Shown: in pieces, positions 20,789 to 44,707 of the stretch
Position numbering within the stretch: the stretch's first letter is position 1
Layout of the letters: each line of letters starts with the position of its first letter
NCBI RefSeq assembly: GCF_000423625.1
Contig: NZ_AUII01000001.1
Coordinates: 310,001-374,000 of the forward strand
DNA: 64,000 bases
From: Pseudonocardia asaccharolytica DSM 44247 = NBRC 16224
GTDB taxonomy: Bacteria > Actinomycetota > Actinomycetes > Mycobacteriales > Pseudonocardiaceae
Reading direction: 5' to 3'
The notes under the pieces: model-generated
The model's database searches: none
What the model saw: only the letters and a program-made list of their open reading frames with translations
What the model was told of the DNA's origin: nothing
Made by a program: the position numbers and the translations under genes

Positions 20789-23700
20789 GTGGAGGCCAAC
20801 TCGAGCCGCTGGCACGAGATCACCCCGTCGTCGTTCGCCCACGAGCAGGCCGCGCTGCGCTACGTCCGGGATCTGCTACCGGACCGACATCCCTACCAGG
20901 CGTGGTCGAACTTCACCTTCATCTCCGACCACGGCCACATCCGCGAGGTCGACCTGCTCGTGGCCGCGCCCACCGGCCTGTTCCTGATCGAGATCAAGAA
21001 CTACCGGGGTGGGCTCACGAACAGCGGCTCGACGTGGATCCTCACCGGCGACCGGTCCCGCTCCTTCGACAACCCGCTCCCGCTCGCCGACCAGAAGGCC
21101 AAGGAGCTCAAGAGCCTGCTCGGCCGGGCCGCCGCGAAGGACCGCAGCATCCGGATGCCGTTCGTCCGCGGCTGCGTCTTCCTCGCCGAACCGCAGATGA
21201 CGTGCGCTCTCGATCCCGAGCAGCGCCACCACGTCTACGTACCCGATGAGAGCCGCGCCGCCGGGACGCTGGGGCGTATCGGGGCCGGTCTGCTGCTCGC
21301 GCCGGTGACGCACGCGCCGCCGCCACCGGAGTTCCTGTCGGCGCTGCCGCGGCTGCTGCAGAAGGTGGGCATCCACCGCACGCGGCGCAGCGTCGCGGTC
21401 GGCCCGTGGCAGGTCGAGCCCCGGCCGTATGACTCCGGTCCGACGTGGCAGGACCACCATGCGTCCCGCGAGGACCTGCCGGGCGCCTACCGGCGTATCC
21501 GCATCTACCTCCATGAACGGCAGGCCGACCCGGAGGCCCGCACGTCGGTGCGACATGCGGCGCAGCGCGAGTTCCTTGCCGCGCAGGGCATCGAGCATCC
21601 GGGCCTGCTCGTTCCGCGTGAGCTGCTCGACCACGAGATGGGCCCCGCGCTGGTGATCGACCAGCACGCCGAGGCGAGGCGGCTCGATCACTACATGACG
21701 GGTGAGGGCAAGGCCCTCGATCTGCCCGCCCGTCTCGGGCTCGTCCGGCAGCTCGCCGAGGCCGTGGGCTACGCCCACGACCGGCGCCTGGTGCACCGCG
21801 CGCTGTCCCCCCGCGCGATCATCGTCGAGCCGGGGGAGCAGGGGTGGTCGGCACCACGGCTGCGGATCGGGGAGTGGCAGTCGGCGGCCCGCGGGCTCTC
21901 GTCGACGAGCACCACGCATCGGGTCGAGCCGACCACGCACGCCGGTCGCCACGTCGAGGCCGCCGCAGGCCCCTACCTGGCCCCGGAGTTCACCGGCGAG
22001 GTCGACGGCACGGTCGGCATCGACGTCTTCGGCCTCGGCGCCACGGCGTATCTCCTGCTCACCGGGGGTCCGCCGGCGGAGGGGCGGTCCGAGCTGATGG
22101 AGCGGCTGGCCGCGGAGGGCGGGCTGCACCCGTCGGTCGTGTTCGACGCGATCCCGCCGGACGTCGACGCCCTGGTGGCGCTGACGACCGCACCGCGGGT
22201 CTCGGATCGCCCGGACGTCGAGGAGTTCCTCGTCGAGCTCGACCGGGCGATCGGCAATGCGCAACCGCAGGATCAGCCCGTCGACCCGTGGGACGCACAG
22301 GTCGATGCGGAGCTGCCCGACGGCTACCGGGTGCGGCGGGTGCTGGGAACGGGCGCGACCGCCCGCGCGTTCCTCGTCGAGCGCGACAGCCTGGAGTCCG
22401 TGCTCAAGGTGGGCCGCTCGGCCCAGGCGGAGGAGCGGCTCGGCGACGAGGCGATCGTCCTGGAGGGGCTGCGCCACGAGCACCTCGTGCTGCTGCGGCG
22501 CGGCGTTTTCGAGCTGGGCAGCCGGCATGCGATCGAGATCGACTACGCCGGCGACCAGACGCTCGCGCAGCTGCTCCGCGCCGAGGGCGCGCCGGTGCCC
22601 GACCAGCTGCAGCGGTTCGGCGACCAGCTGCTCGACGTCGTCGACTACCTCGGCAGGCGGGAGACGTTCCACCGCGACATCAAGCCCGACAACCTCGGCG
22701 TGCGGCGGCATCCCAAGCGCGGCCCGGCCCTGGTCCTCTTCGATTTCTCGCTCGCCGGCGCGAGCGCCTCCGACGTCCTGGCGGGGACCCGGGGCTACCG
22801 CGACCCGTTCCTCGGCACCGACCGTCGTCCCACCTACGACGGCGCCGCCGAGCTGTACGCGGTCGCGGTCACCTTGCACGAGATGGCGAGCCTGGAGCTT
22901 CCCCTGTGGAGCGAGGACGGGACCGACCCGCGGTTCGCCGACGAGGTGACGATCTCCTCGGAGCTGTTCGAGGCCGGGCTGCGCGAGCCGTTGACCGCCT
23001 TCTTCCGGCGGGCGCTGGACCGCGACGCCGACGAGCGCTACCCGACGGCCGGGGCGATGCGGCAGGCGTGGAACCGCGTGTTCACGGCGATGGACGAGCA
23101 GGCGCCGGCCCGCACGTCCCACTCGTCCACCGAGGACCCGAAGGAGATGCGGGAGGAGGCGGCCTCGGCCGCGACGGCGGACACCGCGCTCGACGCCGCC
23201 GGTCTGTCGCTGCGGGCCGTCGCGGTGGCCCAGCGGCTCGGCGCGAGCACGGTCGGCGAGTTGATGCAGATCTCGACCCGGGATCTGTGGCGGGCGCGGG
23301 GGCTTGCCCGCAGCACCCGGCTCGAGCTCGTGAACCGGACGACGTGGTGGCGCAGGAATCTGCTGACGGCCGCGCCGGGCCCGGTCCGCGCGCCGGTCCC
23401 GGACACGGGGGACGGCCTGCCGCCCACGTTGGACGCGATCGTGGCCGGGCTACTTCCCGCCCCCACCAAGCGGGGCGCCGACCAGCGCGAGCTCACGCGT
23501 CTCCTGCTGGGTCTGCCCGGCGACGACGGCACCCTGCCTGCCGTCCGGTGGCCGACGCTGGCCGACGTCGCCGCGCCGTCGGGCCTGACCCGCGCCCGGA
23601 TCAGCCAGATCGTCGGCAAACGACGGATCGAATGGGCCGCGGTCGCCGCGGTCGACGGCGTCCGCGAGGACCTGGCCGCCCAGCTGCGGGCGCTCGGGCG

Positions 23701-24976
23701 GGTCGCCGCCGCGAGTGAGCTCGTCGACCAGCTTCTGATCACCCGTGGCTGCGACCGCGAGGAGGACCCGCAGCGCCGCCGGGCGTACGGGTACGCCGTG
23801 CTGCGCGCCGCCTGCGAGACCGACTCGATCGCCGAGAGCCCGATGTTCGCGACGCGCAGGCATCGCGATCGCGTCCTCGTGGCGCTGCAGGTCGGCGACG
23901 AGGAATCACTGGAGACGCCCAGCGACGCGCAGCTGCTGGACATGGCGGTCGAGCTGTCCGACGAGGCGGTGCGGCTCGCGAGCCTCGATCCGCTGCCGAC
24001 TCCGGTGGCGGTGGTGCGTGCGCTGGAGACCGTGGCGCGCAGACATGATCAGGTTCCGGCGGAGCGGCGGCTCGTGCAGCTCGCCGCGGCGGCGTCGGGC
24101 ACCGTCCTGGCGAACGCGCGGCTGGAGCTGTATCCGCGCGATCTCGACCCGATCCGGGCGCTGCGGCTCTCCCAGGCCGGGGCGGGTGTCCCGGACAACG
24201 GGCTGAAGCCGGACGCCCTCGTGCGGCGGGTGGCCGCCCGCTTCCCGGGGCTGGCGGCCTTGCCGGAGGGGCTGGAGTTCGTCCGGCTGCTGCGCGAGGC
24301 CGGCTTCGACCTGCGGTGGGACGGCGACCTCCTCGTCCCGCCCCGGACCGTCGCGTCCAGCAGTTCGTGGCGTTCGGAGACGTCGACGGGCGGCGCAGCC
24401 GTGGCCGCTGCGCCGGCGGGCGAGAGCGGGCCCGAGGCCCGGCTGCGGTACGTGCTCGAACACGGTGGCGTCCGGATGGTCACCGTCCGGCGGTCCCGGT
24501 GGGCGGCGTGCCGCCGGCATGTGGCCGGACTCGTCGGAGCCGAGGTCGTCGACGCGTCGGCCGCGTTCGTCTCCGCGTTGCGGGAGATCGCGCGGGAGCG
24601 GCGGATCGCCGACTTTGGTGTCGTGCTGCGGGCCGACGCGCCCGACGCGGACCCGCGCGCCCGGGCGAACCTGCAGCGCGTGGTGGACGAGGCCTGGGTA
24701 CGGCTGCGCGACGGGTGGGACGCGGCGGATGTCCTTGTGCTCGATGCGCTGACGCCGTTCGGTCGCTACCCGGGCGGCGTGGCGGTGCTGGACCGGCTGC
24801 TCGACGCCGCCCGCCGCGCCGGCCGGGACGGCGGCCCGCGCACCGTCGTGTTGCTGTGTCCCGCTCAGGACGAGCAACAGGCCCCGCGGATCGGGGCGCA
24901 GGCGGTCGGGCTCACGACCGCGGAGGAGTGGATCGTCGCGCCCGCGCGGTGGACGGCGGCCGCAACGGTTGCGTAG
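20789..24976 (+). CDS. pglW: BREX type 2 serine/threonine kinase PglW
   Basis: 1395 residues. A NERD nuclease-related domain is N-terminal (about 15-130; GHIREVDLLVAA and LFLIEIKNYRGG). A first kinase-like lobe (about 225-480) has HRALSPRAIIV where HRD would be, so it looks inactive. A second kinase (about 510-780) has LGTGATARAF, Lys at about 538, FHRDIKPDNLG at about 628 and DFS in place of DFG. The tail includes helix-hairpin-like LSLRAVAVAQRLGASTVGEL and a helix-turn-helix (GLTRARISQIVGKRR, about 930). In Pgl/BREX-2 systems PglW is a kinase needed for phage growth limitation. GTG start with GGAGGAGGGG just upstream. The gap before it (20537-20788) shows no gene and should carry the promoter. 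Confidence 0.92.
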   Translation: MEANSSRWHEITPSSFAHEQAALRYVRDLLPDRHPYQAWSNFTFISDHGHIREVDLLVAAPTGLFLIEIKNYRGGLTNSGSTWILTGDRSRSFDNPLPLADQKAKELKSLLGRAAAKDRSIRMPFVRGCVFLAEPQMTCALDPEQRHHVYVPDESRAAGTLGRIGAGLLLAPVTHAPPPPEFLSALPRLLQKVGIHRTRRSVAVGPWQVEPRPYDSGPTWQDHHASREDLPGAYRRIRIYLHERQADPEARTSVRHAAQREFLAAQGIEHPGLLVPRELLDHEMGPALVIDQHAEARRLDHYMTGEGKALDLPARLGLVRQLAEAVGYAHDRRLVHRALSPRAIIVEPGEQGWSAPRLRIGEWQSAARGLSSTSTTHRVEPTTHAGRHVEAAAGPYLAPEFTGEVDGTVGIDVFGLGATAYLLLTGGPPAEGRSELMERLAAEGGLHPSVVFDAIPPDVDALVALTTAPRVSDRPDVEEFLVELDRAIGNAQPQDQPVDPWDAQVDAELPDGYRVRRVLGTGATARAFLVERDSLESVLKVGRSAQAEERLGDEAIVLEGLRHEHLVLLRRGVFELGSRHAIEIDYAGDQTLAQLLRAEGAPVPDQLQRFGDQLLDVVDYLGRRETFHRDIKPDNLGVRRHPKRGPALVLFDFSLAGASASDVLAGTRGYRDPFLGTDRRPTYDGAAELYAVAVTLHEMASLELPLWSEDGTDPRFADEVTISSELFEAGLREPLTAFFRRALDRDADERYPTAGAMRQAWNRVFTAMDEQAPARTSHSSTEDPKEMREEAASAATADTALDAAGLSLRAVAVAQRLGASTVGELMQISTRDLWRARGLARSTRLELVNRTTWWRRNLLTAAPGPVRAPVPDTGDGLPPTLDAIVAGLLPAPTKRGADQRELTRLLLGLPGDDGTLPAVRWPTLADVAAPSGLTRARISQIVGKRRIEWAAVAAVDGVREDLAAQLRALGRVAAASELVDQLLITRGCDREEDPQRRRAYGYAVLRAACETDSIAESPMFATRRHRDRVLVALQVGDEESLETPSDAQLLDMAVELSDEAVRLASLDPLPTPVAVVRALETVARRHDQVPAERRLVQLAAAASGTVLANARLELYPRDLDPIRALRLSQAGAGVPDNGLKPDALVRRVAARFPGLAALPEGLEFVRLLREAGFDLRWDGDLLVPPRTVASSSSWRSETSTGGAAVAAAPAGESGPEARLRYVLEHGGVRMVTVRRSRWAACRRHVAGLVGAEVVDASAAFVSALREIARERRIADFGVVLRADAPDADPRARANLQRVVDEAWVRLRDGWDAADVLVLDALTPFGRYPGGVAVLDRLLDAARRAGRDGGPRTVVLLCPAQDEQQAPRIGAQAVGLTTAEEWIVAPARWTAAATVA

Positions 24977-26148: not shown

Positions 26149-26935
26149 TCAGAACGTCTCCCAGCCAGGGCCGCTCATCGGCTCGTACCCGACTGGCGCC
26201 CGGCCGTCGAGCCGGGCCAGGAGTCGCAGGTGCGCCGGTGCCTCCGGTCCGTTGACGTGCTCGACGGTCACCGCCACGGGACCGCTGCGCTGCAGAACGC
26301 GCAGGTGCTCCAGCAGTAGATCGGGGACGTAGCCGAGCGGCTGCCCGGTGCGGGTGCACACGCGCACGGCATCGGAGTTGATCGGGTTCTCGGGCTCCTC
26401 CTGTAGGACGAGCCGCTCTCCCGGCGAGAGCTGCGGCAGGCGGCCGCCGGTCACGTGCCGGATTCCGTGGACCAGGAACAGGCACGTCGTGGAGCCGTCG
26501 GACTCGACCCGCGGGATCGGGAACACCTGAACGGTGTCTCCGGTGCTGCGACCTCCGGAGCGAGCGAGCTGCTCCCAGGGGGACGCGTCCCGCGCGAGGT
26601 GTAGCTGATCGAGGAACTCGCCGAAGTCGGTCGGCGGGCGCTCATGATTCGCTGAGAGAACAACGGGAACAGGTGCTCGGACGTGTAGGTCCGGCTCCAC
26701 TCCGGGAAGCTCAGGAACGGGAGGAAGCCAGGTGTCTGCGTCGCCGGCGCAAGTACCGGAATCGATAACTGCCATCCGCTGACAGCTCCAGAAGCCCGAC
26801 GGGCGCGATGAGCCGCGTCTCGGGGTTCTGCCAGGCAACGATCAATCTGCCGGACGAGCCCCTGGCCTCGCCGGCGGCTGACCTCGAGCCGGAGAAGGGC
26901 GCCTCCAAGAGCCCGGCCGCCACGTCAGTCGTCAT
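26149..26935 (-). pseudogene. HIRAN-domain protein with two frameshifts
   Basis: A gene of about 262 codons readable only by joining three frames. From the ATG at 26935: LIVAWQNPETRLIAPVGLLE and SYRFRYLRR. After a shift near 26745: TPGFLPFLSFPEWSRTYTSE and HLFPLFSQRIMSARRP. After a shift near 26615: DFGEFLDQLHLARDASPWEQ, LFLVHGIRHVTGGRLPQLSP and LQEEPENPINSDAVRV to the stop at 26149. The last part is a HIRAN domain, a predicted DNA-end or damage-binding module found with nucleases, helicases and MTases. It overlaps the HipA-like gene upstream by 11 bases, so both formed one operon opposite to pglW. The few indels suggest recent decay, or sequencing error. Confidence 0.75.
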
Positions 26936-27530
26936 GAAGCAGCCTCCTCCGGTGGATGTCGAGCACTCCGATGATGAACTTAGCCGTCGGCTCCGACAGC
27001 CGCGGGATACTTCTCACGACGTCCTCGATCTCATCCTGTTCGATGTCGCGCAGACGGCCGGTCCAGTAGCGGCGATCTCGTTCGCCCACCAGGTCGAGGG
27101 CCTGATGAGCGGTCGCCACCAGTGTAGGGATCTCGCTCTTGGGGCGGCCCCGCGGGTTCAGGCGGCCTTCCTGGTAGTTCGGCACGACCGTGCCCCTCAG
27201 TTCGGACCCCAGGACTCGGCTCCAGCCGTCGGAGATGACGTTGCGTGAGATCGCGCCTTCCTCTCCGTCGTGCACGGCGAGCCGCACCTCGGCGCAGGGG
27301 ACGCCGAGCAGGCGACCCAGTTCGCTCACGATCTTCTCCGCCCAGTCCTCGCCCTGGCGGTGCCCATGTTGCGGGATGACGACCGGTTTGTAGAGCCAGT
27401 CGCGCTCTCGGCTGAGTGAGTCCTTGGGTGCGCCGGGCTCCCGCAGCCAGAGTTTTCGGTCGCGGCCGATCGGCTCGACGTTGACGACCTCCCACGCCGA
27501 AACGTCCACAATGGGAAAGTTCCGGATCAT
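26925..27530 (-). pseudogene. HipA-like kinase with core deleted
   Basis: 201 residues starting MIRNFPIVDVSAWEVVNVEP. The N-terminal part, DWLYKPVVIPQHGHRQGEDW then AEKIVSELGRLLGVPCAEVR, matches the nucleotide-binding lobe of HipA-like or phosphatidylinositol-kinase-like proteins. Around residue 120-150 the chain jumps to EIPTLVATAHQALDLVGERD and a tail (PRLSEPTAKFIIGVLDIHRR) that normally ends a protein of about 320 residues. The catalytic centre (N-x-D-R-H-x-x-N and the metal Asp) is absent, so an in-frame deletion probably removed it. The ATG at 27530 lies 143 bases before divergent pglX. Together with the HIRAN gene it looks like a decayed two-gene accessory module. Confidence 0.6.
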
Positions 27531-27672
27531 GAGGGCAGCGTACGGAGACAACCGTTCGAATCCGATCGCCATGGGCCGCAGCGGTGCCCGCTGCTTCCTC
27601 CGGCCCGGTGTGCCTGGAACGATCAGCGGTCCCGGCCCGATGAGGTCACCGGGGGCACGGAGGGAGAACCGG

Positions 27673-30600
27673 ATGATCGACTCGAAGGCGCTGCTGGAGG
27701 ACCTGCGCGGGCAGGTGCGGTTGCTGGAGGTCGATCTGGCCGAGCAGTCGACGGCGGTGCCCGGGTTGGCCGACGTGCTGCGCGAGGAGCATGCGGCCGA
27801 GCGCAAGGCGCGGCGGACCGCGGCGGAGTGGCCGGCGTGGCGGGACGCGCGGCTGACCCAGGTCGCGGTCGCGTGGGTGCTGGGCACGGTGTTCCTGCGG
27901 TGGAGCGAGGACAACGGGCTGATCGACCCGGTGCTGTCGGGTCCGGGGGAGCGGTTGGCCGTGGCCGAGGACGCCCAGCTGGGGCACTACCGGCGCCATC
28001 CCGAGCACCACGACGGCGAATGGCTGGCCGAGCAGTTCGAGGTGCTGCGCAGCACCGACGCCGGGCGGCTGCTGTTCGACCCCGACCACAACCCGATGTA
28101 CTGGGTGCCGATCTCACACGACGCGGCGAAGAACCTGGTCGCGTTCTGGCGCTCGACCGACGGCCGCACGCTGCGCCACGACCTCACCGACCCCGGGTGG
28201 GACACCCGCTTCCTGGGTGACCTGTACCAGGACCTGTCCGAGGACGCGAAGAAGCGCTACGCCCTGTTGCAGACCCCGCGGTTCGTCGAGCGGTTCATCC
28301 TCGACCGGACGCTCACGCCCGCCATCGACGAGTTCGGGCTCGACGGGCTGCGGCTGGTCGACCCGGCGTGCGGGAGCGGTCACTTCCTGCTCGGCGCGTT
28401 CTCCCGGCTGGTGGAGGCCTGGCGGGAGCAGTCGCCGGGGCTGGACGGCTACGAGATCGTGCGGCGGGCGCTCGGCTCGGTGCACGGGGTGGACACCAAC
28501 CCGTTCGCGGTGGCGATCGCCCGGTTCCGGCTGCTGGTCGCCGCGCTCAAGGCCGCCGGGGTGACGACGTTCGCCCAGGCCGCCGGGCAGGGCTGGCGGC
28601 CGGTGGTGGGCTGCACCGACTCGCTGCGCACGCCGGAGCGGCAGGAGTCGATCGCCGAGGTGGACGCGGCGGTCGGGTACCGGGCGCGGTGGGAGGACGT
28701 CGAGGAGTTCGCCGACGAGCGGCTGCTCGCCTCGGACTCGTATCACGCGGTAGTGTGCAACCCGCCCTACATCACGATGAAGGACCCGGAGCAGAACGAG
28801 TACTACCGCAAGCGGTGGTCGGCCTGTCACCGGCAGTTCCAGCTCACCGTGCCGTTCGCGCAGCGGATCTTCGACCTGGCCCGGCGCGCCGGGGAGGACG
28901 GGCTCGGTGCCGGGTACACCGGGCAGATCACCTCGAACGCGTTCATGAAGCGGGAGTTCGGCACCAAGCTGGTCGAGGAGTTCTTCCCGACGGTCGAGCT
29001 GACCCATGTGGTCGACACCTCCGGCGCCTACATCCCGGGACACGGCACACCCACGGTGATCCTCATCGGACGGAGGGCGAAGCCCGATCGGCGCGAGACC
29101 GTGCGGGCGGTCCTCGGGGTGCGGGGCGAACCCTCGCAGCCCGCGGACCCGGAGAAGGGTCTGGTGTGGACGGCGATCGAGGCCCAGGTCGACCACCCGG
29201 GCAGCGAGAGCGACTGGGTCAGCGTGGTCGACCTCCCGCGCTCACGGCTGGCGAGCCACCCGTGGTCGCTGTCGGGCGGCGGGGCTGTTGAGCTTCTTCA
29301 ACACCTTGAGAGTGTTTCACCGACCCGGATCAAAACGGTTTGCGAGCTTATCGGCTTTCTTGCGCTGACGCGTGAGGACGATGCATACGTTCTCGACCGG
29401 GCTACGGTCAGCAGGCTTGAACTAACGGATACCGCGCATCAATTCGCGATCGGAGCCGAGATACGCGACTGGGCGCACGAGACAGATCTGTATGCGGTTT
29501 TCCCCTACTCGGCGAATGGCGAACGAGGGCGGCTCACCTCGGCTGCATTCCACCTTCTATGGCCCAACCGAGTTCTTCTGCTGAAGCGTCGGGCACTATC
29601 CGGTTATCATATTGATCGCGGGCTCGACTGGTTCGTGTACTCGGACTTTCATCCACCGCGCTGGCAGGCGTCCCGCTTGATTGCGTTCGCGGAAGTGACG
29701 ACGCACAACCATTTCGTGCTGGACCGGGGCGGGAAGGTGTTCAAACAGACTGCTCCGGTGATCAAGCTGCCGGCGGAGGCGAGCGAGGACGACCACCTGG
29801 CGCTGCTCGGGGTGCTGAACTCGTCGACGGCATGCTTCTGGCTGAAACAGGTATGCACACAAAAGGGCGGTGGTGGCGTCGGGTGTGGCTTCAAGACTGA
29901 GCGCTGGGAAGAGCGGTTTGCGTTCAATGGGTCGAACGTCGAGGAGTTCCCGCTGCCCGCCGATCTCCCGTTGAATCGCGGCCGCCAGCTCGACTCCCTC
30001 GCCCGGCAGCTGGCCGCCACCACCCCCGACGCGATCGCCGCCACCGCGACCCCGACCCGCGACCGCCTCGCTGCTGCCCGGATCCAGCACGAGCGCCTGC
30101 GCGCGGAGATGGTCGCCGCGCAGGAGGAGCTGGACTGGGACGTCTACCGCCGCTACGGCCTGCTGTCGGACACCGAGGCGGCGGAGGTGCTCGGCGACGG
30201 TGCCGCCGAACCGCTGAACCTGGGCGAGCGGGCGTTCGAGATCGTCCTGGCCCGCAGGGTCGCGGCCGGCCAGGCCGACACGCAGTGGTTCGCCCGCCAC
30301 GGCTCCACCCCGGTCACCGAGCTGCCCACGCACTGGCCAGCGGAGTACCGCCGCACGGTCGAGGCACGGATCGCGCTGATCGAGCGGCGCCGGGATCTCG
30401 CGCTGATCGAGCGCCCGGAGTGCAAGCGGCGGTGGGCCACGGAATCCTGGGAGCGCCAGCAGGAACGCGCGCTGCGCAGCTGGCTGCTCGACCGGCTCGA
30501 ATCCCGGGCGCTGTGGTTCACCCCGGACATGAACGGCGAGGAGCAGCCGGCCCCGCAGACCGTGCGCACCCTGGCCGACCGGCTCCGCGGCGACCAGGAC

Positions 30601-31584
30601 TTCGGCTCGGTCGCCGCGCTGTGGGCGGGCGGTGCGCTGGGGCGCCCGGACGCCGACCTCGCCGAGATCGTCGGCGAGCTGATCGACGCCGAGCACGTGC
30701 CGTTCCTTGCCGCCTACCGCTACAAGCCGAAGGGCCTGGCCAAGCGCGCGGAGTGGGAGCACACCTGGGCGTTGCAGCGGCGGGAGGACGCGATCGCGGC
30801 CCGGCTGGGCCACGACGACGTCACCCACCCGGAGGTCCGGGCGGCGATCGCCACGGAGATCGGGGAGGTGCCGGTCCCGCCGAAGTACGGGTCCGGGGAC
30901 TTCCTGCGCGGCAGCTACTGGAGCCGGCGGGGCAAGCTCGACGTGCCCAAGGAGCGGTTCGTCTCCTATCCGGGCGCCGGCCGCGACGGTGACGGCAGCC
31001 TGCTGCTCGGCTGGGCCGGCTGGGACCACCGGGAGCAGGCCCAGGCGCTGGCGGTGCTGGTCAGCCAGCGCCGCGGGGACGACGGCTGGCCGGCCGAGCG
31101 GATCACGCCGCTGCTGGCCGGGCTGGCCGAGGTGCTGCCGTGGGTGCGGCAGTGGCACGCCGAGATCGACCCCGTGTACGGCGCGGCGCCCGCCGACATC
31201 TACGACGGATTCCTCGACGCCCAGCTCGGGGAGCTGCACCTGAGCCGCGACCAGCTCGCCGCCTGGCGCCCCGCCGGGCGCGTCGACGTCGCCCCGATGC
31301 CGCGGCGGGCAGCCTCGCGCGGCCCGCGCGGCGGTGAGTCGGGCGCGCCCCGTGCGCGGCGTTCACGGTCGGCCCCCGACCCGGAGCACGTCGACGCGGT
31401 GCTGACGGCGGCGGCGACCGGACCGTTGTCGAACGAGCAGATCCGCGACCTCACCGGCCTCGACGCCGCCGGTGCGCGAGCCGTCGCGACATACCTGGTG
31501 AAGCAGGGCCGGCTCGTCACAACCGGGCAGCGCCGCGGGATGCGCTACGGAAGCTGCCGCACGAGATCCGAGGGTGATGGTTGA
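27673..31584 (+). CDS. pglX: BREX type 2 adenine-specific methyltransferase PglX
   Basis: 1303 residues. The SAM-binding motif LVDPACGSGHFLLGAF is at about 230 and the catalytic NPPYITMKDPEQNEY at about 363, both intact, giving a gamma-class N6-adenine methyltransferase. The segment from about 535 to 770 should contain target recognition and part of it is AT-richer than the rest. The C-terminus ends in a winged-helix-like LTGLDAAGARAVATYLVKQG. PglX marks host DNA and is required for BREX-2/Pgl phage exclusion. ATG 27673 was chosen for GGGAGAACCGG upstream and because MIDSKALLEDLRGQV is the usual start. The last residues (SCRTRSEGDG) are read from sequence shared with the convergent monooxygenase gene, so the original 3' end may be altered. 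Confidence 0.92.
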   Translation: MIDSKALLEDLRGQVRLLEVDLAEQSTAVPGLADVLREEHAAERKARRTAAEWPAWRDARLTQVAVAWVLGTVFLRWSEDNGLIDPVLSGPGERLAVAEDAQLGHYRRHPEHHDGEWLAEQFEVLRSTDAGRLLFDPDHNPMYWVPISHDAAKNLVAFWRSTDGRTLRHDLTDPGWDTRFLGDLYQDLSEDAKKRYALLQTPRFVERFILDRTLTPAIDEFGLDGLRLVDPACGSGHFLLGAFSRLVEAWREQSPGLDGYEIVRRALGSVHGVDTNPFAVAIARFRLLVAALKAAGVTTFAQAAGQGWRPVVGCTDSLRTPERQESIAEVDAAVGYRARWEDVEEFADERLLASDSYHAVVCNPPYITMKDPEQNEYYRKRWSACHRQFQLTVPFAQRIFDLARRAGEDGLGAGYTGQITSNAFMKREFGTKLVEEFFPTVELTHVVDTSGAYIPGHGTPTVILIGRRAKPDRRETVRAVLGVRGEPSQPADPEKGLVWTAIEAQVDHPGSESDWVSVVDLPRSRLASHPWSLSGGGAVELLQHLESVSPTRIKTVCELIGFLALTREDDAYVLDRATVSRLELTDTAHQFAIGAEIRDWAHETDLYAVFPYSANGERGRLTSAAFHLLWPNRVLLLKRRALSGYHIDRGLDWFVYSDFHPPRWQASRLIAFAEVTTHNHFVLDRGGKVFKQTAPVIKLPAEASEDDHLALLGVLNSSTACFWLKQVCTQKGGGGVGCGFKTERWEERFAFNGSNVEEFPLPADLPLNRGRQLDSLARQLAATTPDAIAATATPTRDRLAAARIQHERLRAEMVAAQEELDWDVYRRYGLLSDTEAAEVLGDGAAEPLNLGERAFEIVLARRVAAGQADTQWFARHGSTPVTELPTHWPAEYRRTVEARIALIERRRDLALIERPECKRRWATESWERQQERALRSWLLDRLESRALWFTPDMNGEEQPAPQTVRTLADRLRGDQDFGSVAALWAGGALGRPDADLAEIVGELIDAEHVPFLAAYRYKPKGLAKRAEWEHTWALQRREDAIAARLGHDDVTHPEVRAAIATEIGEVPVPPKYGSGDFLRGSYWSRRGKLDVPKERFVSYPGAGRDGDGSLLLGWAGWDHREQAQALAVLVSQRRGDDGWPAERITPLLAGLAEVLPWVRQWHAEIDPVYGAAPADIYDGFLDAQLGELHLSRDQLAAWRPAGRVDVAPMPRRAASRGPRGGESGAPRARRSRSAPDPEHVDAVLTAAATGPLSNEQIRDLTGLDAAGARAVATYLVKQGRLVTTGQRRGMRYGSCRTRSEGDG
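29281..29980. other. Low-GC mosaic segment inside pglX (probable target-recognition region)
   Basis: By hand count, six 60-base lines from 29281 to 29640 average about 57% GC, against about 75% in the line at 28681 before the segment. The edges are sharp: GC-rich codons end at SLSGGGAVELL and resume around KVFKQTAPVIKLP, with a second AT-richer patch at about 29850-29940 (QVCTQKGGGGVGCGFKTERW). The frame stays open. The position, well after NPPY in a BREX MTase, is where DNA-sequence specificity is expected to reside. Confidence 0.65.
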
Positions 31585-37016: not shown

Positions 37017-37066
37017 TCACGGTGCGACTAGGGTCGCCACGGACTGCGACAGTGGAGGAGCGAGGG

Positions 37067-40000
37067 GTGACAACTGCGGGACAGGCGGGCCGGCCACTCC
37101 TTCGCGAGCTGATCAGGATCCCGGAACGGATCCACCAGGGCGATTTCGTCCTGCGCCTCACCGAGGGCGTGCAACACACGCGATCCACCCTGGACAGCTA
37201 CGTCATCACCCCCCAGCTGCGCGTGGCGTTCGACGAGGCACTCGGGCTGATCGGTTCCGCGCTCGCCGAGGGCCGGTCGAAGGCCAGCTACCTGCACGGC
37301 TCCTTCGGGTCCGGCAAGAGCCACTTCATGGCGGTGCTGCACGCGCTGCTGCGCGGTGACGTCGCCGCCCGGTCCCGTCCGGAGTTCGCCGACGCGCTGG
37401 CCCGGCACCGCTGGCTGGGCCAGCAGCGGTTCATGCTCGTTCCGTACCACCTGATCGGGGCGGAGAGTCTGGAGGCCGCGATCCTCGGCGGCTACGTCGA
37501 CCACGTCCGCCGGGAGCACCCCGACGCGCCGCTGCCGCCGGTGTACCGCGTGCAGGGCCTGCTCGACGACGCCCGCGCGATCCGCGACAGCATCGGCACC
37601 CGGGCGTTCCTGGACCGGCTGCCCGCTTCGCAGGACGACGAGTGGGGGACCGTCGAGGCGCCGTGGACGCCCGAGCAGCTCGACGAGGCGTTCGCCGCCG
37701 CGCCGGACTCCCCGCTCGCCCAGCGCCTGATCAGCGACGTCGTGCCGGTCTTCATGCCCAGCTACGCCGACTCGGTGCGTGGTGCCGCCAACGCGTTCGT
37801 GCCGCTCGACCCGGGGCTGGCCGCGATCAGCGCGCACGCGAAGCGGCTCGGCCACGACGCGGTGATCCTCTTTCTCGACGAGCTGGTGCTCTGGCTCGCC
37901 GGCAAGATCGGTGACCCGGCGTTCGTCTCCCGGGAGACGGAGAAGGTCGCGAAACTGGTCGAGTCGTCCGACGCGTACCGGGCCGTGCCGATCGTCAGCT
38001 TCATCGCCCGGCAACGCGACCTGCGCGAGCTGATCGGCGCCAAGCGCACCGGCGCGGAGACGCTGTCGTTCCAGGACCAGCTCTCCTATTGGGACGGCCG
38101 CTTCGCCACCGTCACCCTGGAGGACCGCAACCTCGAGCTCATCGCCGAGAAGCGCATCCTCGCGCCCATCGACGAGGTGGCCGCGCAGCGCATCGCCGAG
38201 GCGTTCCGTCGCACCGACAACCTGCCCGGCGCCACCCGGGACGTACTGCTGACCGACGGCGACGGCGAGGCGTTCCGGCGCACCTATCCGTTCAGCCCGG
38301 CGTTCATGCAGACGCTGGTGCACGTGTCCTCGGCGCTGCAGCGCGAACGCACCGCGCTGAAGCTGATGCAGCAGATCCTCGTCGACCGCCGCGACGACCT
38401 GCGCCTCGGCCAGCTCGTCCCGCTCGGCGACCTCTTCGACGCCATCGCCGACGGCAACGACCAGCCGTTCACCGAGAAGCTCAAGCACGAGTTCGACCAG
38501 GCTCGCACGCTCTACCAGCGCACGCTGCGGCCGATGCTGCTGGAGCAGCGGGGGCTCACCGAGGAACAGGCCGCCGGGCACACCGAGGCGCCGCCCGCGG
38601 TCCTGGCCACCTTCCGCGCCGACGACCGCATCGTCAAGACGCTCCTGCTCTCCGCGCTGGCCCCGGACGTGCCCGCGCTGCGCGGCATGACCGCCCGCCG
38701 GCTCGCCGCGCTCAACCACGGCACCGTCATGACCCTCATCCCCGGCCAGGAGGTCGCCGAGGTCATCCGGCGGCTGCGCAGCTGGGCGGGTCACGTGGGG
38801 GAGCTCAAGGTCGGCGAGGAGGATGATCCGAGCGTCCGGCTGCAGCTCGTCGGGGTCGACATCGGACAGATCCTCGACCGCGTCACCCACGTCGACAACG
38901 ACGCCAGCCGCCGCCGCCTGTTCCGCGACCTGCTGCTCGGCGAGCTCGGCATCCGCGACGACGGGGCGTTCGAGCTGGAGCATCCGGTGGTGTGGCGGGG
39001 GAGCAGGCGCACCGTCGAGATCGTCTACGGGAACGTCCGCGACCGCACCGAGCTGCGCGACGAGGTGTTCGAACCCTCCCAGCCCGGGCGCTGGCGGCTC
39101 GTCGTCGACTACCCGTTCGACGCGGCCACCTACTCCGCCGCAGAGGACCGGATGCGGCTCATGGAGCTGCGCGCCCGGCCCCGCCGCTGCGTCGCGTGGC
39201 TGCCGGCGTTCGTCACCGGCAGCGTCCTGGCGAAGGTCGGCACGCTGGTGCGGATCGACCACCTGCTGTCGGGGAACCAGCTCGACGAGAACGCCGCCCA
39301 CCTCGGCGCCGACGACCGGCAACGCGCCCGCGACCTGCTGCGCAACCAGGGTGACGCGCTGCGCGCCGAGCTGCGGATGGTGCTGCGCGAGGCCTACGGG
39401 CTCGCCAAGGCGAACGAGTCCCACGTGCTGGACTGGTCCGACCACCTGATCAGCCTCGACCCGGCCCTGACCCCGCGGCTGGACGTCGGCCGCCCCTTCT
39501 CGGACGCGCTGGCCCACCTCGTCGACCAGTGCTTCGCCGCGACGTACCCGGATCACCCCCACCTCGACCCGCAGCGCAAAGGCACACCGGTGACGACGGC
39601 GGAGCTGCGGACCGTCCTGGAGGTGGTACGCCGGGCCGCCGACGCCGAGGGCGGGCGGACCGAGACCGACAAGTCCGAGCGCTCCGCGGTGGCGAAGCTC
39701 GCCCATCCCCTGCGCCTCGGCGAGGAGCACGGCGGCCCGTTCGTCCTCTCCCGCGACTGGGAGACCGAGTTCGAGCGGCGCGCCGCGCAGGCCCGGACGG
39801 ACGGCGCCGACCTGCCGGTCCGGCAGGTCCGCGGCTGGCTGGCCGAGCTCGGTCTGGAGGACCGCGTCGCGAACCTCGTCATCGCGACGTACGCGGAGCT
39901 GAGCCGCCGGGCGTGGGTGCGGGCGAACCGGGTCGTCGAGCCGCCGAGGTCGGTCGACGAGGTGCGCGACGACATGCTGCTACGGCCACAGCCGATGCCG

Positions 40001-40741
40001 GACCCCGCGGACTGGGCGGTGGCCGTGGAACGAGCCGGCGTGCTGTTCGGCGAGAAGATCGACGCCCGGGTGATCTCCCCGCGGTCGGTGGCGCGGTTCG
40101 CCCGCGTCGGCGGCAAGGCCGACCAGCTGCGCGCCCCGGCGGCCGACCTGCTGGCCGTGCTGGAGAGCATGCTCCCCCGCCTCGAGGTGCCGAATGAGCC
40201 CGTCGCGCCGCGGCTGCACACCGCCGAGACCGGGATGCGGCTGCTCGACGCGCTGCGGCGCGCCGACGGCCCGACCGAGCTCGTCGCCGCGCTGGCCCGC
40301 GAACCGATCGACGTCCCACTGGTCACGCTCAGCCGGTCGCTCTCCTCGGCCGCGACCGTCGCGCAGGCGCTGCGGGACGCCGACTGGCAGGTCCTCGACC
40401 GGCTGTCCTCGCTCGATCATCCCGACGCCGACCCGGTCCGCGAGACACTCCGGACCGGAGCCGCGACGAACGAGAACGCCGCCTCGCTGGCCGAGGTCAT
40501 CGCCGAGGCGCGGCGACGGGTGCTCGACCTGATCGTCGTCGCGGCGCCGGGCCGGCCTCCGCGTCCGGCCCGGTCTCCACAGCCGGCCCAGTCTCCGCCG
40601 GTCGGCCCCGCTCCGGGTCCGGCGCGCGTGCGGACGCTGCGGGGCCGCCGGGACGAGGTGCTGGCGCAGCTGCGAGAGGTGCTCCCGCGGGGTGTGGACG
40701 TCGAGATCACCGTCCGGGTCCTCGGCGATGTCCACGGCTGA
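37067..40741 (+). CDS. pglY: BREX type 2 ATPase PglY
   Basis: 1224 residues. Walker A is YLHGSFGSGKSHFMAVLHAL (about 75-94) and Walker B AVILFLDELVLWLAG (about 265-280). The remainder is long and mostly helical, without other motifs I can name, as in PglY/BrxC-type P-loop proteins. PglY is one of the two large core proteins of the Pgl system and works with PglZ, whose gene overlaps it by 14 bases. GTG at 37067 is preferred because GAGGAGCGAGGG precedes it; an in-frame GTG at 37022 is weaker. It begins the second half of the locus, separated from pglX by about 5.5 kb of unrelated genes. Confidence 0.92.
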   Translation: MTTAGQAGRPLLRELIRIPERIHQGDFVLRLTEGVQHTRSTLDSYVITPQLRVAFDEALGLIGSALAEGRSKASYLHGSFGSGKSHFMAVLHALLRGDVAARSRPEFADALARHRWLGQQRFMLVPYHLIGAESLEAAILGGYVDHVRREHPDAPLPPVYRVQGLLDDARAIRDSIGTRAFLDRLPASQDDEWGTVEAPWTPEQLDEAFAAAPDSPLAQRLISDVVPVFMPSYADSVRGAANAFVPLDPGLAAISAHAKRLGHDAVILFLDELVLWLAGKIGDPAFVSRETEKVAKLVESSDAYRAVPIVSFIARQRDLRELIGAKRTGAETLSFQDQLSYWDGRFATVTLEDRNLELIAEKRILAPIDEVAAQRIAEAFRRTDNLPGATRDVLLTDGDGEAFRRTYPFSPAFMQTLVHVSSALQRERTALKLMQQILVDRRDDLRLGQLVPLGDLFDAIADGNDQPFTEKLKHEFDQARTLYQRTLRPMLLEQRGLTEEQAAGHTEAPPAVLATFRADDRIVKTLLLSALAPDVPALRGMTARRLAALNHGTVMTLIPGQEVAEVIRRLRSWAGHVGELKVGEEDDPSVRLQLVGVDIGQILDRVTHVDNDASRRRLFRDLLLGELGIRDDGAFELEHPVVWRGSRRTVEIVYGNVRDRTELRDEVFEPSQPGRWRLVVDYPFDAATYSAAEDRMRLMELRARPRRCVAWLPAFVTGSVLAKVGTLVRIDHLLSGNQLDENAAHLGADDRQRARDLLRNQGDALRAELRMVLREAYGLAKANESHVLDWSDHLISLDPALTPRLDVGRPFSDALAHLVDQCFAATYPDHPHLDPQRKGTPVTTAELRTVLEVVRRAADAEGGRTETDKSERSAVAKLAHPLRLGEEHGGPFVLSRDWETEFERRAAQARTDGADLPVRQVRGWLAELGLEDRVANLVIATYAELSRRAWVRANRVVEPPRSVDEVRDDMLLRPQPMPDPADWAVAVERAGVLFGEKIDARVISPRSVARFARVGGKADQLRAPAADLLAVLESMLPRLEVPNEPVAPRLHTAETGMRLLDALRRADGPTELVAALAREPIDVPLVTLSRSLSSAATVAQALRDADWQVLDRLSSLDHPDADPVRETLRTGAATNENAASLAEVIAEARRRVLDLIVVAAPGRPPRPARSPQPAQSPPVGPAPGPARVRTLRGRRDEVLAQLREVLPRGVDVEITVRVLGDVHG

Positions 40742-43373
40742 GATCGCGTCGGCCGGCGAGCGCGCCGTCCTCGAACGGGTGCGCAGCCAGCTGGCGCGGG
40801 TCACCGAGCCGCACGGCCTCGTGATCGGTATCCGGACGCTCGAACCCCCCGTCTGGCAGAGCGAGCCGGAGCAGCGGATCGACGAGCGGCCGGTGCGGAT
40901 CGCCGCGTGCCCCTCCGTGCTGGCCGTGCTCGACGCGCTGGCCGGCGCCGACCGGGCGGGCGTGACCGTGCTGCTCACCGACCAGCCGGAAAGCGAACTC
41001 GGCGACGCGGTCCTCGCCCGGCTGCATCGCGGCAAGCTCCTGGAGGCCGACCGGTACACGCTGCTGGGCGATCTGCTCGACGCGCGCACCCTCGACCCCC
41101 GCATCCGCGCCGAGAGCTGGCTGGTCGACGCGCTGATCGCGCTCGCGGGGGCCGAGGCGCTGCCGTCGGTGACGGGGGCGGCCGTCAGCCGCCGGCGGGC
41201 CGTCGGCCTCGTGGCGGCCGCCCGCCTCGGCGTCGACCCGGAACAGCAGGATCTGCCCGGCCTGGTCGCGGTCTTCGACGAGACCGCCGTCCGGTCGGGC
41301 TGGCGGGTGCTGGGCGAGGCCGAGCGTGCCGGCCTCGTCACCCACCTCGAGGAGCTGCACGGGCGGGGCGCGGGGGCCGTCGCGACGCTCGCGCAGCAGC
41401 GCGACGACGTCCTCGCCGAACTGCTCGTCGCCGCAGCCATCACCGCGGCCCCGGCCTCGGAAACACGCGCGGCGATCGCGCTCGGCGGTTTCACCCAGTC
41501 GCGTTTCCCCACGCCGCGTCCCACCCCGGCGGATCTCACCGCCGCCGGGCGCGCCGCGGTCGAACACACCCGGCGGGCCACGTCCGCGCGGGTGAGCCAG
41601 CAGATCCGGCGTGCCGAGGCGCTGCTCGACGAACTCGACGCCGCGGCCGTCGCGACATACAGCGACGTCCTGCCGCGCGGGTTCGGTGAGCGCCTCGCGC
41701 ACGCCGCGACGTCACTCGAGGCGCCGGCGCTCACCGCGCTGGAGGCCCATGTGGAGGCGCGCGCGCAGCAGCACCGCGTCTCCCGGGTCCGCGCTGCGCT
41801 GCGCCTGCAGCGGTGGCTCGACACCCGGCCGACCGCCGACTACCGGACCACCGGCGAGGCCCTTGCACACCACGCCCGGGAACTCGCGTGGGTCGACAGG
41901 GCCCTCGCCCAGGTCCGTGCAGGCGATGCGGATCCGCGCGTCGCCGCCGTCCTCACCCGGGTTGCCGCGCAGGCAGGGCCGGCCCGCACCCGGTTCGACT
42001 CCGCCTTCGTGGCCCGACTCGCCGTCGCCCCGGACACCCCGGCCGAATCGCTCGCCGTGGAGACCCTGTTGCCCACGGTCGTCGGTCCGCTCGCGCACAC
42101 CCGCGGCGTCCTGCTGGTCGTCGTGGACGGAATGTCCGGTGCGGTGGCGGGTGACCTCGCCGAGCGGCTCACCGACCATCGCAGCGGATGGACCGAGATC
42201 GTGCGCTCCGCCGACGGCGGGCGAGAGGCCGTCCTCGCCGCGCTGCCCAGCGAGACCCGCTTCAGCCGGGCGAGCCTGTTCCTCGCGGCGCTGAGCGTCG
42301 GGGGGCAGTCCGACGAGCGAGCCGCCTTCGCCGCCCACCCCTTCTGGCCGCCCGGTGGTGCGGTGCTCATACACAAGGCGGGCCTGGCCCCCCGCAACGG
42401 CGGTGACCTCGGGCCCGAGCTGGAGACCGCGCTCGCGCCCGCAGAGGGAAGCCCCCGCGTCATCGGGGTGGTCCTCAACGCCGTCGATGACGCGCTCGGC
42501 AAGGGCCGACAGTCGATCGACCCGGCGTGGCGGCCGCAGGACATCCCGGGGCTGCCCCAGCTTCTGGACCGCGCGGCGACCGCGGGCCGGGTCGTCGTGC
42601 TGACCAGCGACCACGGCCACGTGCTCGAACACGGATCGCAGCTGCGCAACCACTCCGGCGGCGGGGCGCGCTGGCGGCCGGCCACCGAGCCGGTGGGCCC
42701 GGATGAGGTGATGGTCGCCGGGCCGCGGATGCTGTCGGGCGACGGGCGCGCGGTGCTCGCGGCGACCGACGGCCTCCGCTACGGCGCCCGCGCCTACGGC
42801 TACCACGGCGGGGCGACGCTGGCCGAGGTGGCGATTCCGCTCCTGGTCCTGCTGCCGCCCGGCGTCGACGTTCCGCCCGGATGGAGGCAGACGCGCGGCG
42901 CGCCGGAATGGTGGACCGGGGCCGCCGCGACGCCCGCTTCCGAACCTGCACCGGCGCCGCGCAGCGCCGAGACGACAAAGACGAGAAAGAAGCCGTCGGC
43001 GCAGGGCGAGGGCCTGTTCGCCCGGCCGGCGCCGGCGCCCCGGCCGGCCCGCCGCTCCGGCCGCGGGGCCGCGCTGCTGGCCTCGCCGATCTTCCAGGCC
43101 GCGCACGCGGAGATGCCGGCCAACCGGGTTCCGGCGCCCGCGGTGTTCGCCGCTGTGGTGGACGCGCTCGTCAAGGCCGGGGGCCGGTTGCCGTCGGCCG
43201 CGGTGCTCGCCGCCGCGAACAGCCCCGGACGCAACCCGCGCGGCCTGGTCACCGCGATGGGCCGCGTGCTGAACCGGGACAGCTACGCCGTGCTGACGCC
43301 CGTCGACGGCGGTCGCGCCGTCGCGCTGGACCTCGCCCTGCTCGACGAGCAGTTCCCACCGAAGCGGTCGTGA
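40728..43373 (+). CDS. pglZ: BREX type 2 phosphatase-domain protein PglZ
   Basis: 881 residues. An alkaline-phosphatase-like PglZ domain occupies the middle: LLVVVDGMSGAVAGDLAERL at about 463, then VVVLTSDHGHVLEHGSQLRN at about 623 with the metal-binding Asp-His-His pattern. PglZ domains are the signature of all BREX systems. In Streptomyces coelicolor PglZ is required alongside the toxic methyltransferase PglX and appears to restrain it. A Pro/Ala-rich linker (about 730-785) precedes a C-terminal helical domain. Start ATG 40728 inside the end of pglY; its stop overlaps the brxD start (TGATG). Confidence 0.92.
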   Translation: MSTAEIASAGERAVLERVRSQLARVTEPHGLVIGIRTLEPPVWQSEPEQRIDERPVRIAACPSVLAVLDALAGADRAGVTVLLTDQPESELGDAVLARLHRGKLLEADRYTLLGDLLDARTLDPRIRAESWLVDALIALAGAEALPSVTGAAVSRRRAVGLVAAARLGVDPEQQDLPGLVAVFDETAVRSGWRVLGEAERAGLVTHLEELHGRGAGAVATLAQQRDDVLAELLVAAAITAAPASETRAAIALGGFTQSRFPTPRPTPADLTAAGRAAVEHTRRATSARVSQQIRRAEALLDELDAAAVATYSDVLPRGFGERLAHAATSLEAPALTALEAHVEARAQQHRVSRVRAALRLQRWLDTRPTADYRTTGEALAHHARELAWVDRALAQVRAGDADPRVAAVLTRVAAQAGPARTRFDSAFVARLAVAPDTPAESLAVETLLPTVVGPLAHTRGVLLVVVDGMSGAVAGDLAERLTDHRSGWTEIVRSADGGREAVLAALPSETRFSRASLFLAALSVGGQSDERAAFAAHPFWPPGGAVLIHKAGLAPRNGGDLGPELETALAPAEGSPRVIGVVLNAVDDALGKGRQSIDPAWRPQDIPGLPQLLDRAATAGRVVVLTSDHGHVLEHGSQLRNHSGGGARWRPATEPVGPDEVMVAGPRMLSGDGRAVLAATDGLRYGARAYGYHGGATLAEVAIPLLVLLPPGVDVPPGWRQTRGAPEWWTGAAATPASEPAPAPRSAETTKTRKKPSAQGEGLFARPAPAPRPARRSGRGAALLASPIFQAAHAEMPANRVPAPAVFAAVVDALVKAGGRLPSAAVLAAANSPGRNPRGLVTAMGRVLNRDSYAVLTPVDGGRAVALDLALLDEQFPPKRS

Positions 43374-44707
43374 TGTCCGGCAACGTGTCCTCGGTGAGTC
43401 CCGCCCGCCGCCGCACGGTGCTGGCGGCGCTGCGGCGGGGCACCGTCCCGGACAGTGGGCTCGACCTGCTCGCCGTCGGGTTGGAGCGCCTGGCACCCGC
43501 GTTCCAGGCCGAGCTGACGGCATGTCGCGCCGGCGGTGCGGCCTTCACCGCGATCCGCGGTGAGTACGGCTCGGGCAAGACGTTCGTCTCGCGGTGGCTC
43601 GGCGAGCGCGCCAAGGCGTCGGCGATGGCCGTCGCCGAGGTACAGATCTCGGAGACGGAGACCCCGCTGCACCGGCTCGAGACCGTGTACCGGCGCCTGT
43701 GCGAACGACTGGCGACGGCGACGGATCCGCCCAGCGCGTTCCGTCCCGTCCTCGACGCCTGGCTCTACGCGCTGGAGGAGGACGTGCTCGCCGAGGGCAC
43801 GGTCGCGGCCGATGACGCGGACGCGCTCGGCGCCGCGGTCGACGCGCTCCTGGAGCAGCGGCTGGCCGCGCTCGCCCGGGTGGCGCCCGGCTACGCCGCC
43901 GGGCTCCGCGGATATCGGCGCGCGCTCGCCGACGGCGACGTCGACACCGCGGACGGGGTGGTGGCCTGGCTGGCCGGACAGCCGCACGTGGCCGCGGCGG
44001 CCCGGCGGACCGCCGGGGTTCGCGGGGACATCGACCACTTCCTCGCGCTGGGGTTCCTGCAGGGCCTGCTCACCGTGCTGCGCGACGCCGGGCACCCGGG
44101 CCTGATGCTCGTCCTCGACGAGGTCGAGACGCTGCAGCGGGTGCGCAGCGATGCGCGGGCGAAGGCGCTCAACGCGCTGCGCCAACTGCTCGACGAGCTC
44201 GACGGCGGCCGATTCCCCGGGCTCTACCTCGTGATCACCGGGACGCCGGCGTTCTTCGACGGGCGCCAGGGTGTCGCGCTGCTCCCACCGCTCGCGCAGC
44301 GGCTGCACACCGACTTCTCGACCGACCCGCGGTTCGACAACCCGCGGGCCCCTCAGGTGCGGCTGCTCGGGTTCGACCTGGGCGGGCTCGTCGAGCTCGG
44401 CGTGACGGTCCGCGACCTCTTTGCCGCGGGGGCGTCGGACCCGGCGCGGATCCGCCAGGTCGTCGACGACGGGTACCTGCGCGTTCTCGCCGGCGCGGTT
44501 GCCGGCGGCCTCGGCGGGCAGGTCGGCGTCGCGCCCCGGGTGTTCCTGCGCAAGCTGGTCGGAGACGTCCTGGACCGCGTCGACCAGTTCCCCGACTTCG
44601 ACCCGCGCGTGCACTACACGCTCACGCTGTCGGCGTCGGAGCTGACCGCGGTCGAGCGGAACGCCGCCGCCCGCCGCGCCGACGACGTCGAGCTCGACCT
44701 GCCGTGA
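43373..44707 (+). CDS. brxD: BREX ATP-binding protein BrxD
   Basis: 444 residues. Walker A GEYGSGKTFVSRWLGERAKA at about 62 and Walker B LMLVLDEVETLQRVRSDAR at about 243 mark an AAA/STAND-type ATPase. The C-terminal part is winged-helix-like (FLRKLVGDVLDRVDQFPDFD). BrxD is specific to type 2 and some other BREX loci and always sits beside the helicase BrxHI. Overlaps on both sides (TGATG upstream, GTGA downstream) suggest strict co-translation from pglY to brxHI. Confidence 0.9.
   Translation: MSGNVSSVSPARRRTVLAALRRGTVPDSGLDLLAVGLERLAPAFQAELTACRAGGAAFTAIRGEYGSGKTFVSRWLGERAKASAMAVAEVQISETETPLHRLETVYRRLCERLATATDPPSAFRPVLDAWLYALEEDVLAEGTVAADDADALGAAVDALLEQRLAALARVAPGYAAGLRGYRRALADGDVDTADGVVAWLAGQPHVAAAARRTAGVRGDIDHFLALGFLQGLLTVLRDAGHPGLMLVLDEVETLQRVRSDARAKALNALRQLLDELDGGRFPGLYLVITGTPAFFDGRQGVALLPPLAQRLHTDFSTDPRFDNPRAPQVRLLGFDLGGLVELGVTVRDLFAAGASDPARIRQVVDDGYLRVLAGAVAGGLGGQVGVAPRVFLRKLVGDVLDRVDQFPDFDPRVHYTLTLSASELTAVERNAAARRADDVELDLP

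Follow-up and report, generated by a model that had tools for sequence, protein, structure and literature searches.

Two variable tracts around a conserved anchor in the probable target-recognition domain of a BREX-2 PglX methyltransferase from Pseudonocardia asaccharolytica

The window analysed here is a stretch of 64,000 nucleotides from Pseudonocardia asaccharolytica DSM 44247 = NBRC 16224 (contig NZ_AUII01000001.1, positions 310,001 to 374,000), and all positions given below are counted from its first letter. On its forward strand lies a bacteriophage exclusion (BREX) locus of type 2 (Pgl) in which PglW, PglX, PglY/BrxC, PglZ, BrxD and BrxHI are all present. The subject of this work is a low-GC block in the middle of pglX, which is most probably the part of the methyltransferase that recognizes DNA and which appears to have been assembled from separately exchanged pieces. 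The genes are pglW (20789..24976; NF033442, 1368.6 bits, above the cut-off), pglX (27673..31584), pglY, which encodes a BrxC-type ATPase (37022..40741; PADLOC BrxC 1398.5 bits, NF047891 1223.8 bits, the latter below its cut-off of 1700), pglZ (40692..43373; NF033446, 661.1 bits, above the cut-off), brxD (42881..44707 for the open reading frame as listed, in which the BrxD match starts at residue 170; PADLOC BrxD 662.7 bits) and the brxHI helicase gene (44704..46791; PADLOC BrxHI 1091.6 bits).

The predicted product of pglX is the BREX-2 adenine-specific DNA methyltransferase and specificity factor (NCBIfam NF033451, 1668.9 bits against a cut-off of 400; PADLOC PglX, 1630.9 bits). A reading of the bare sequence had proposed that the frame stays open through the block, and indeed it runs for 1303 residues without a stop. 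PglX has both motif I and NPPY, as expected of an N6-adenine methyltransferase. The S-adenosylmethionine-binding motif I, DPACGSG (residues 230-236, 28360..28380; named as in PMC11341690), is invariant except for A232 in an alignment of 64 sequences, and the catalytic motif IV, NPPY (residues 363-366, 28759..28770), is invariant in the same alignment. Pfam places an Eco57I-type methylase domain at residues 270-449 and the C-terminal domain DUF7008 at residues 813-1202 (30109..31278; PF22654, 539.4 bits), with no domain in between, and it is there, between the methyltransferase domain and DUF7008, that the block sits.

Both windowed GC and a scan of third-position GC (GC3) bear out the low-GC block. 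In 200-bp windows the GC content is 0.56-0.63 over 29300-29999, compared with 0.665-0.74 in the three adjoining upstream windows (28900-29299) and 0.725-0.805 over 29900-31499. The figure of about 57% given by the sequence-only reading describes the first half of the block. The best-fitting low-GC3 segment in pglX covers codons 538-752 (29284-29928), with a GC3 of 0.674 inside and 0.951 outside and a log-likelihood gain of 59.9, against a maximum of 12.0 among 200 permutations; the same kind of scan gave gains of 4.4, 12.0 and 4.5 for the pglW, pglY and pglZ genes of the window. Sharp edges had also been claimed, and the 5' edge is sharp, but the interior is not uniform. GC3 is 0.61 at residues 538-672, 0.88 at 673-720, 0.73 at 721-768 and 0.97 at 769-830, so the block consists of two low-GC tracts around a host-like segment. 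Alignment to the closest relatives places a left conserved anchor, HPWSLSGGGA (29257..29286), as the last apparently native stretch 5' of the presumably exchanged block. It is followed by the first tract, here called TRD1 (residues 538-674, 29284..29694), by a central conserved anchor of 150 bp (THNHFVLDRGGKVF...LNSSTACFWLKQ; residues 675-724, 29695..29844) and by the second tract, TRD2 (residues 725-757, 29845..29943).

The block most probably corresponds to a target-recognition domain (TRD), as judged from a sequence profile and a predicted fold. Positions 362-741 of a PglX family profile, built from 64 of 84 collected PglX sequences, align with CamA (E value 1.2e-18 for the whole sequence) and positions 356-730 with M.BseCI. 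Since the TRD of CamA comprises residues 320-577 (PMC8187626), it corresponds in this alignment to the low-GC block of pglX, in agreement with the sequence-only reading, which had put the block at the position expected for target recognition. An AlphaFold2 model of residues 1-1200 (mean predicted local distance difference test score 84.3, below 50 at the TRD2 tip, residues 732-746; predicted template modelling score 0.73) has among its best fold matches CamA, M.BseCI, E. coli BrxX, Salmonella PglX and MmeI, so that the structural comparison does not move target recognition elsewhere in the protein. A search of solved structures with the block alone gave no match. Because the profile alignment of E. 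coli BrxX to BREX-2 PglX failed outside motif I, the TRDs of BREX-1 and BREX-2 not being alignable, CamA was used for mapping at the level of residues; its contacts were placed by hand on the profile alignment, in which the aligned chain is numbered one above the numbering of the paper. The CamA residues that contact bases 1-3 (Gln346, Ile349, Arg425, Gln438, Trp439 and Arg441) map into TRD1, the wedge Tyr455/Lys456 and the base-4 contacts Ser472/Ala473 map to the end of TRD1 or the central anchor, and Ser514, Ile517 and Tyr521, which contact bases 4 to 6, lie just beyond the end of the alignment, approximately where TRD2 starts (PMC8187626). BrxX varies most in its TRD, which is built of two alpha/beta subdomains and reads the first four base pairs via K681, D684, R751, Q784 and N823 (PMC11842806), and T802 and S838 of Salmonella PglX correspond to A774 and R810 of MmeI (PMC11341690). 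By homology, the first (5') bases of the motif would be read by TRD1, and one or more bases next to the methylated adenine by TRD2.

The relatives were sampled around the gene of the window. The main set of 84 PglX sequences contains this gene, the best 80 of 141 confirmed stretches, and L082, L083 and L084 from a search of 60 genomes (the own genome included) that gave matches in 9; L085 was excluded for internal stops, and the fragments L004, L006 and L063 were kept. Two of the six seed peptides used in the search for relatives lie in TRD1, so the sample may favour similar TRDs. L082 and L083 belong to the same genus as the window genome, and L002, a Pseudonocardia metagenome-assembled genome, is the nearest named relative. 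Conservation among these homologues is far from uniform across the block. Identity to the three, counted per 20 residues, is mostly 0.7-1.0 in the flanks, 0.15-0.40 at residues 541-660, 0.85-0.95 at 681-700 and 0.35-0.70 at 721-760; over the whole of TRD1 it is 0.25-0.30, compared with 0.79-0.85 in the flanks. At the DNA level, 25-29 of the 30 bases per 30-bp window are identical to L082 and L083 in the central anchor, which by this comparison looks native, and 16-21 of 30 in TRD2. Divergence is therefore concentrated in the recognition region, with conserved flanks, the pattern expected of TRD exchange.

That the specificity module alone was swapped by recombination had been suggested from the sequence, and our results support a swap but refine its unit to two cassettes around an anchor. 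Pairwise identity in the N flank correlates with that in the C flank at rho 0.90, whereas TRD1 correlates with either flank at 0.17. Trees were compared for 81 sequences (L004, L006 and L063 dropped), with 10,000 resamplings and 15 control trees with shuffled labels. N-flank data placed on the C-flank tree lose 213 log units (about 7300 on shuffled trees), and C-flank data on the N-flank tree lose about 274-275 (about 9600 on shuffled trees). For TRD1 data, the flank trees (-22352 and -22348) are no better than shuffled-label trees (mean -22295, best -21871), and, judged by the size of the likelihood loss, the tree of the recognition region conflicts with that of the rest of the gene.

Synonymous sites point in the same direction. 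In 18 close pairs, hand-picked for flank similarity and with some members recurring across pairs, identity at fourfold sites falls from 0.78 (residues 1-100) through 0.48 (301-380) and 0.35 (461-537) to 0.29 in TRD1 and then rises through 0.42 in the anchor and 0.58 (766-830) to 0.79-0.81 beyond residue 1000, values in which the lower GC itself somewhat reduces chance identity. Because the codons at residues 461-537 encode a fairly conserved protein, the low synonymous identity there most plausibly means that they were replaced along with the TRD. Between the window and L082, fourfold-site identity is 0.60 at residues 461-537, 0.27 in TRD1, 0.88 in the anchor, 0.36 in TRD2 (14 sites) and 0.80 thereafter, and the anchor identity to L083 is 0.81; the pattern with L082 indicates two separate exchanged tracts.

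Clustering of the 84 genes gave 42 TRD1 classes and 21 TRD2 classes, and across the set no association was seen between the two cassettes. Their mutual information is 1.872, against 1.834 +- 0.039 after permutation (p 0.19). TRD1 class is associated with flank clade above chance (0 of 2000 permutations reached the observed value), and TRD2 class is associated with the flank at chance level (p 0.14). The same TRD1 family occurs on different backbones, and the seven members of TRD1 class 32 are spread over seven TRD2 classes. In Mantel tests the two halves of TRD1 are linked (rho 0.33, p 0.001), as are the N and C flanks (0.91, p 0.001), while TRD1 and TRD2 (-0.03, p 0.70) are not, and TRD1 and the anchor give 0.08 (p 0.07). 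Among 22 further sequences (29 of 52 other places, taken as best-scoring, less 7 duplicates by exact core match), rho is -0.19 between TRD1 and TRD2 and -0.03 between TRD1 and the N flank. It could still be that the TRD is exchanged as a single unit, and that the appearance of two cassettes comes from a short, noisy TRD2 of 33-34 residues, with coarse classes as a result, and from strong constraint on the anchor; the variable zone of 14 E. coli BREX-1 PglX sequences (about residues 525-950) is likewise unbroken and without an anchor. However, a linkage map of 33-residue windows in 82 sequences (L006 and L063 dropped), which compares windows of equal length, gives correlations of 0.17-0.37 among the windows within TRD1 and of -0.04 to 0.00 between these and TRD2. 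Moreover, at synonymous sites the anchor of the window closely resembles that of L082 and L083, although the sequence on both sides of it differs, and L002, L004 and L082 share TRD1 class 37 yet fall in two TRD2 classes. Exchange as one unit is thus unlikely in our view.

The GC valley extends well beyond this gene. In 81 of the 84 BREX-2 pglX genes, TRD1 falls short of the flanks of the same gene by 0.1 or more in GC3 (mean 0.60 versus 0.87-0.90); by the printed values, the exceptions are L069, L082 and the frameshifted fragment L006. When fourfold sites are pooled from those columns that 90% or more of the sequences conserve, GC still goes from about 0.9 to 0.45-0.59 in the valley, which is hence not an amino-acid effect. 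The dip recurs in 21 of the 22 further sequences, by the slightly looser criterion of comparison with the higher of their flanks, and in all four proteobacterial plasmid copies, which had been found via this block. A GC3 drop of at least 0.2 with a gain of at least 20 occurs in 72/91 pglX, 6/74 pglW, 6/65 pglY and 2/43 pglZ genes. In E. coli BREX-1 pglX, mean GC3 falls from about 0.6 to about 0.28 across the stretch of identity loss at about residues 525-950; the 14 sequences are HS and 14 matches picked from 50 listed of 351, minus one that is frameshifted. In this comparison (L131), brxX is matched in 351 of 5426 E. coli genomes, but the match spans 80% or more of the HS gene in only 4, one of which is HS itself. 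The E. coli variable AT-rich zone is longer than the published TRD (651-837). Low GC3 is also found in hsdS: 25 of 30 loci (L101-L130) are at least 0.1 below the higher same-strand neighbour (mean 0.65 versus 0.83), the loci being the top-scoring matches in 49 of 150 genomes from the order of the window and the neighbours being chosen by length only.

Low GC therefore seems to characterize specificity modules in general. Because it is common to BREX-2 pglX, E. coli BREX-1 pglX and hsdS, it is on its own no proof of a recent swap, although the sequence-only reading had taken it as a sign of exchange. A low-GC, fast-evolving specificity region might then be a standing property of the family, with no recent exchange in the pglX of the window, and the dips in the BREX-2 pglX sets, plasmid copies included, and in hsdS favour this. 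We nevertheless regard it as improbable, since TRD1 GC3 is 0.90 and 0.80 in L082 and L083 of the same genus and 0.61 in the window, and since recombination is needed to account both for the near saturation of synonymous sites next to the TRD in close pairs and for the TRD1 family shared by different backbones. As for the cause of the valley, a common low-GC donor pool is disfavoured: TRD1 GC3 is not grouped by TRD1 class (intraclass correlation 0.03), and the level seems to depend on the host, at about 0.6 in BREX-2 TRD1 and about 0.28 in E. coli BREX-1. The valley may result from weaker GC-raising forces on rare alleles or from a general AT-richness of mobile genes.

The source of the TRD1 of the window was looked for in several places. 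Among the 84 sequences its class is shared only with L007 from an Actinosynnema species, at 60% identity (the best found) compared with 51-57% in the rest. Searches with the block gave no match among phage records, and of the two viral-contig stretches that fit a pattern, neither encodes a relative. Six records came from the plasmid collection (36-46%); five of them carry a BREX-2 pglX annotation and the sixth is unannotated. In a search across the class, 50 of 394 genomes matched (own included); the best other match has 53% identity over the block and 0.30 in TRD1, and the highest TRD1 identity among the 8 of 22 kept sequences for which it is given is 0.36, with 29 of the 52 other places having been fetched.

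Programmed switching within the strain, by silent cassettes or an invertase, would be another way to alter the TRD; such switching is known for some hsdS loci (PMC3077401), and phase variation of pglX has been reported (PMC4365076, PMC11341690). Here, a search of the own genome at E 0.1 (71-contig assembly, completeness 100) found one place, pglX itself, and no second copy of the block that could serve as a silent cassette, although no search for an invertase was made. This pglX also has no homopolymer of 6 bases or more, which speaks against Pgl phase variation by a G-tract. Switching of this kind is very improbable for this locus.

Our preferred explanation, to which we give a probability of roughly 0.8, is that the block is the TRD of the BREX-2 PglX methyltransferase and that its present form was assembled by homologous recombination as two separately replaceable cassettes. 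Crossovers would fall in the conserved DNA flanking the TRD and in the conserved anchor in its middle, which would make TRD1 and TRD2 replaceable separately; the window genome would be an example, with both tracts unlike its nearest relatives and the anchor in between closely like two of them. Each replacement would change the DNA word that is methylated and defended, and combinations would multiply the repertoire. The TRD regions may owe their lasting AT-richness to diverse alleles that turnover maintains, with no pull towards the GC content of the host.

Several results weigh against this explanation. BrxX and Salmonella PglX superpose poorly on the whole model (TM 0.38-0.49). A weak signal shared between the parts of the gene persists. 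Even the N-flank and C-flank trees are rejected against one another in the approximately unbiased test, which is why the size of the likelihood loss, and not p, was taken as evidence. The TRD1 tree suits the flank data somewhat better than all 15 shuffled trees do (for the N flank, -19398 versus a best of -19783), and TRD2 data on the other trees (-4191 to -4255) lie slightly above the best shuffled tree (-4274). The Mantel correlation between TRD1 and the C flank is 0.146 (p 0.001), and TRD2 correlates with the flanks at 0.22-0.33 in the 22 further sequences. The anchor is also saturated in comparison with L002 (fourfold-site identity 0.26). The TRD1 of the window and that of L007 are themselves near synonymous saturation (13 of 38 sites identical), so the shared family is old and L007 is not the donor, and no TRD1 donor closer than about 60% was found among the relatives, phage records, viral contigs, plasmids and 394 genomes of the class.

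A wider version of the two-cassette explanation is tentative, and we put it at slightly less than an even chance. It holds that a single TRD carries a combinatorial code with two slots, TRD1 for bases 1-3 and TRD2 beside the target adenine, filled by ancient families that cross genera and are shuffled independently via the central anchor. The alleles would be kept diverse and moved repeatedly, so that the GC content of the host would never be reached and a lasting AT-rich valley would mark the specificity modules of BREX and type I systems in high-GC and mid-GC bacteria.

Other features of the locus and of its relatives stand beside this subject. Two open reading frames between pglW and pglX (26149-27914, reverse strand) match the candidate defence pair PDC-M03A/PDC-M03B; the PDC-M03B-like frame carries a HIRAN domain, and the best PDC-M03A stretch spans just positions 4-115 of 299. 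Also within the BREX locus, a frame with FAD_binding_3 and aromatic-ring hydroxylase domains (31545-33173, reverse strand) has an antisense overlap with the final 40 bases of pglX. A C-terminal extension of PglX (about residues 1205-1303; 31273-31584) is absent over residues 1241-1300 from about nine-tenths of the 83 homologues, and the piece at about residues 1229-1293 has stand-alone matches in three other genomes. In the same-genus genome G018 (L083/L090), pglX is split at residue 55 into two overlapping frames, by assembly error or by switching, and in the Thiodictyon plasmid pTs417 (L097) it is annotated as two genes with a small open reading frame in between.

Module exchange is a known kind of event. 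TRD variability in BREX has been published (PMC11842806), divergence of pglX was noted in PMC9009780, and exchange and movement of TRDs are known for HsdS (PMC3077401). As in HsdS (PMC3077401), PglX has two variable recognition parts with conserved sequence between them, which appear to be exchanged by recombination, and a low GC3, which in the order of the window marks most of the hsdS genes sampled. HsdS is a separate protein with two TRDs for the two halves of a split site, whereas PglX has both parts in one TRD and, as a single methyltransferase, should read one continuous motif. The TRD follows the methyltransferase domain in BREX-1 BrxX/PglX of E. coli HS and Salmonella as well, and identity and GC3 also fall together in the E. 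coli sequences, but there in one continuous run with no conserved central anchor. An N6 methyltransferase with a C-terminal TRD is shared with CamA and M.BseCI by sequence profile and with these and MmeI-type enzymes by fold; unlike the orphan methyltransferase CamA and the restriction enzyme MmeI, PglX belongs to the six-gene BREX-2 system. There is weak evidence that the two-cassette layout within one BREX methyltransferase and the GC valley are new: neither two-part shuffling nor low GC in the TRDs of PglX or HsdS was found in the portion of the open-licence full-text literature that was available.

Judging from the contacts in CamA and BrxX, an exchange would alter the recognized motif. 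If each cassette sets different bases, BREX-2 motifs would be predictable by typing two short segments, and one recombination event could shift the specificity of the defence with the rest of the system undamaged. Dozens of TRD1 families and about 20 TRD2 families make a large natural test set for the recognition code. The AT-rich valley offers a simple signature by which specificity modules could be found in genes that lack annotation, and it raises the testable question of why AT-richness persists in these segments but not in the outer parts of the same genes. As the relatives suggest, mix-and-match pieces would vary the DNA words by which BREX tells self from phage.
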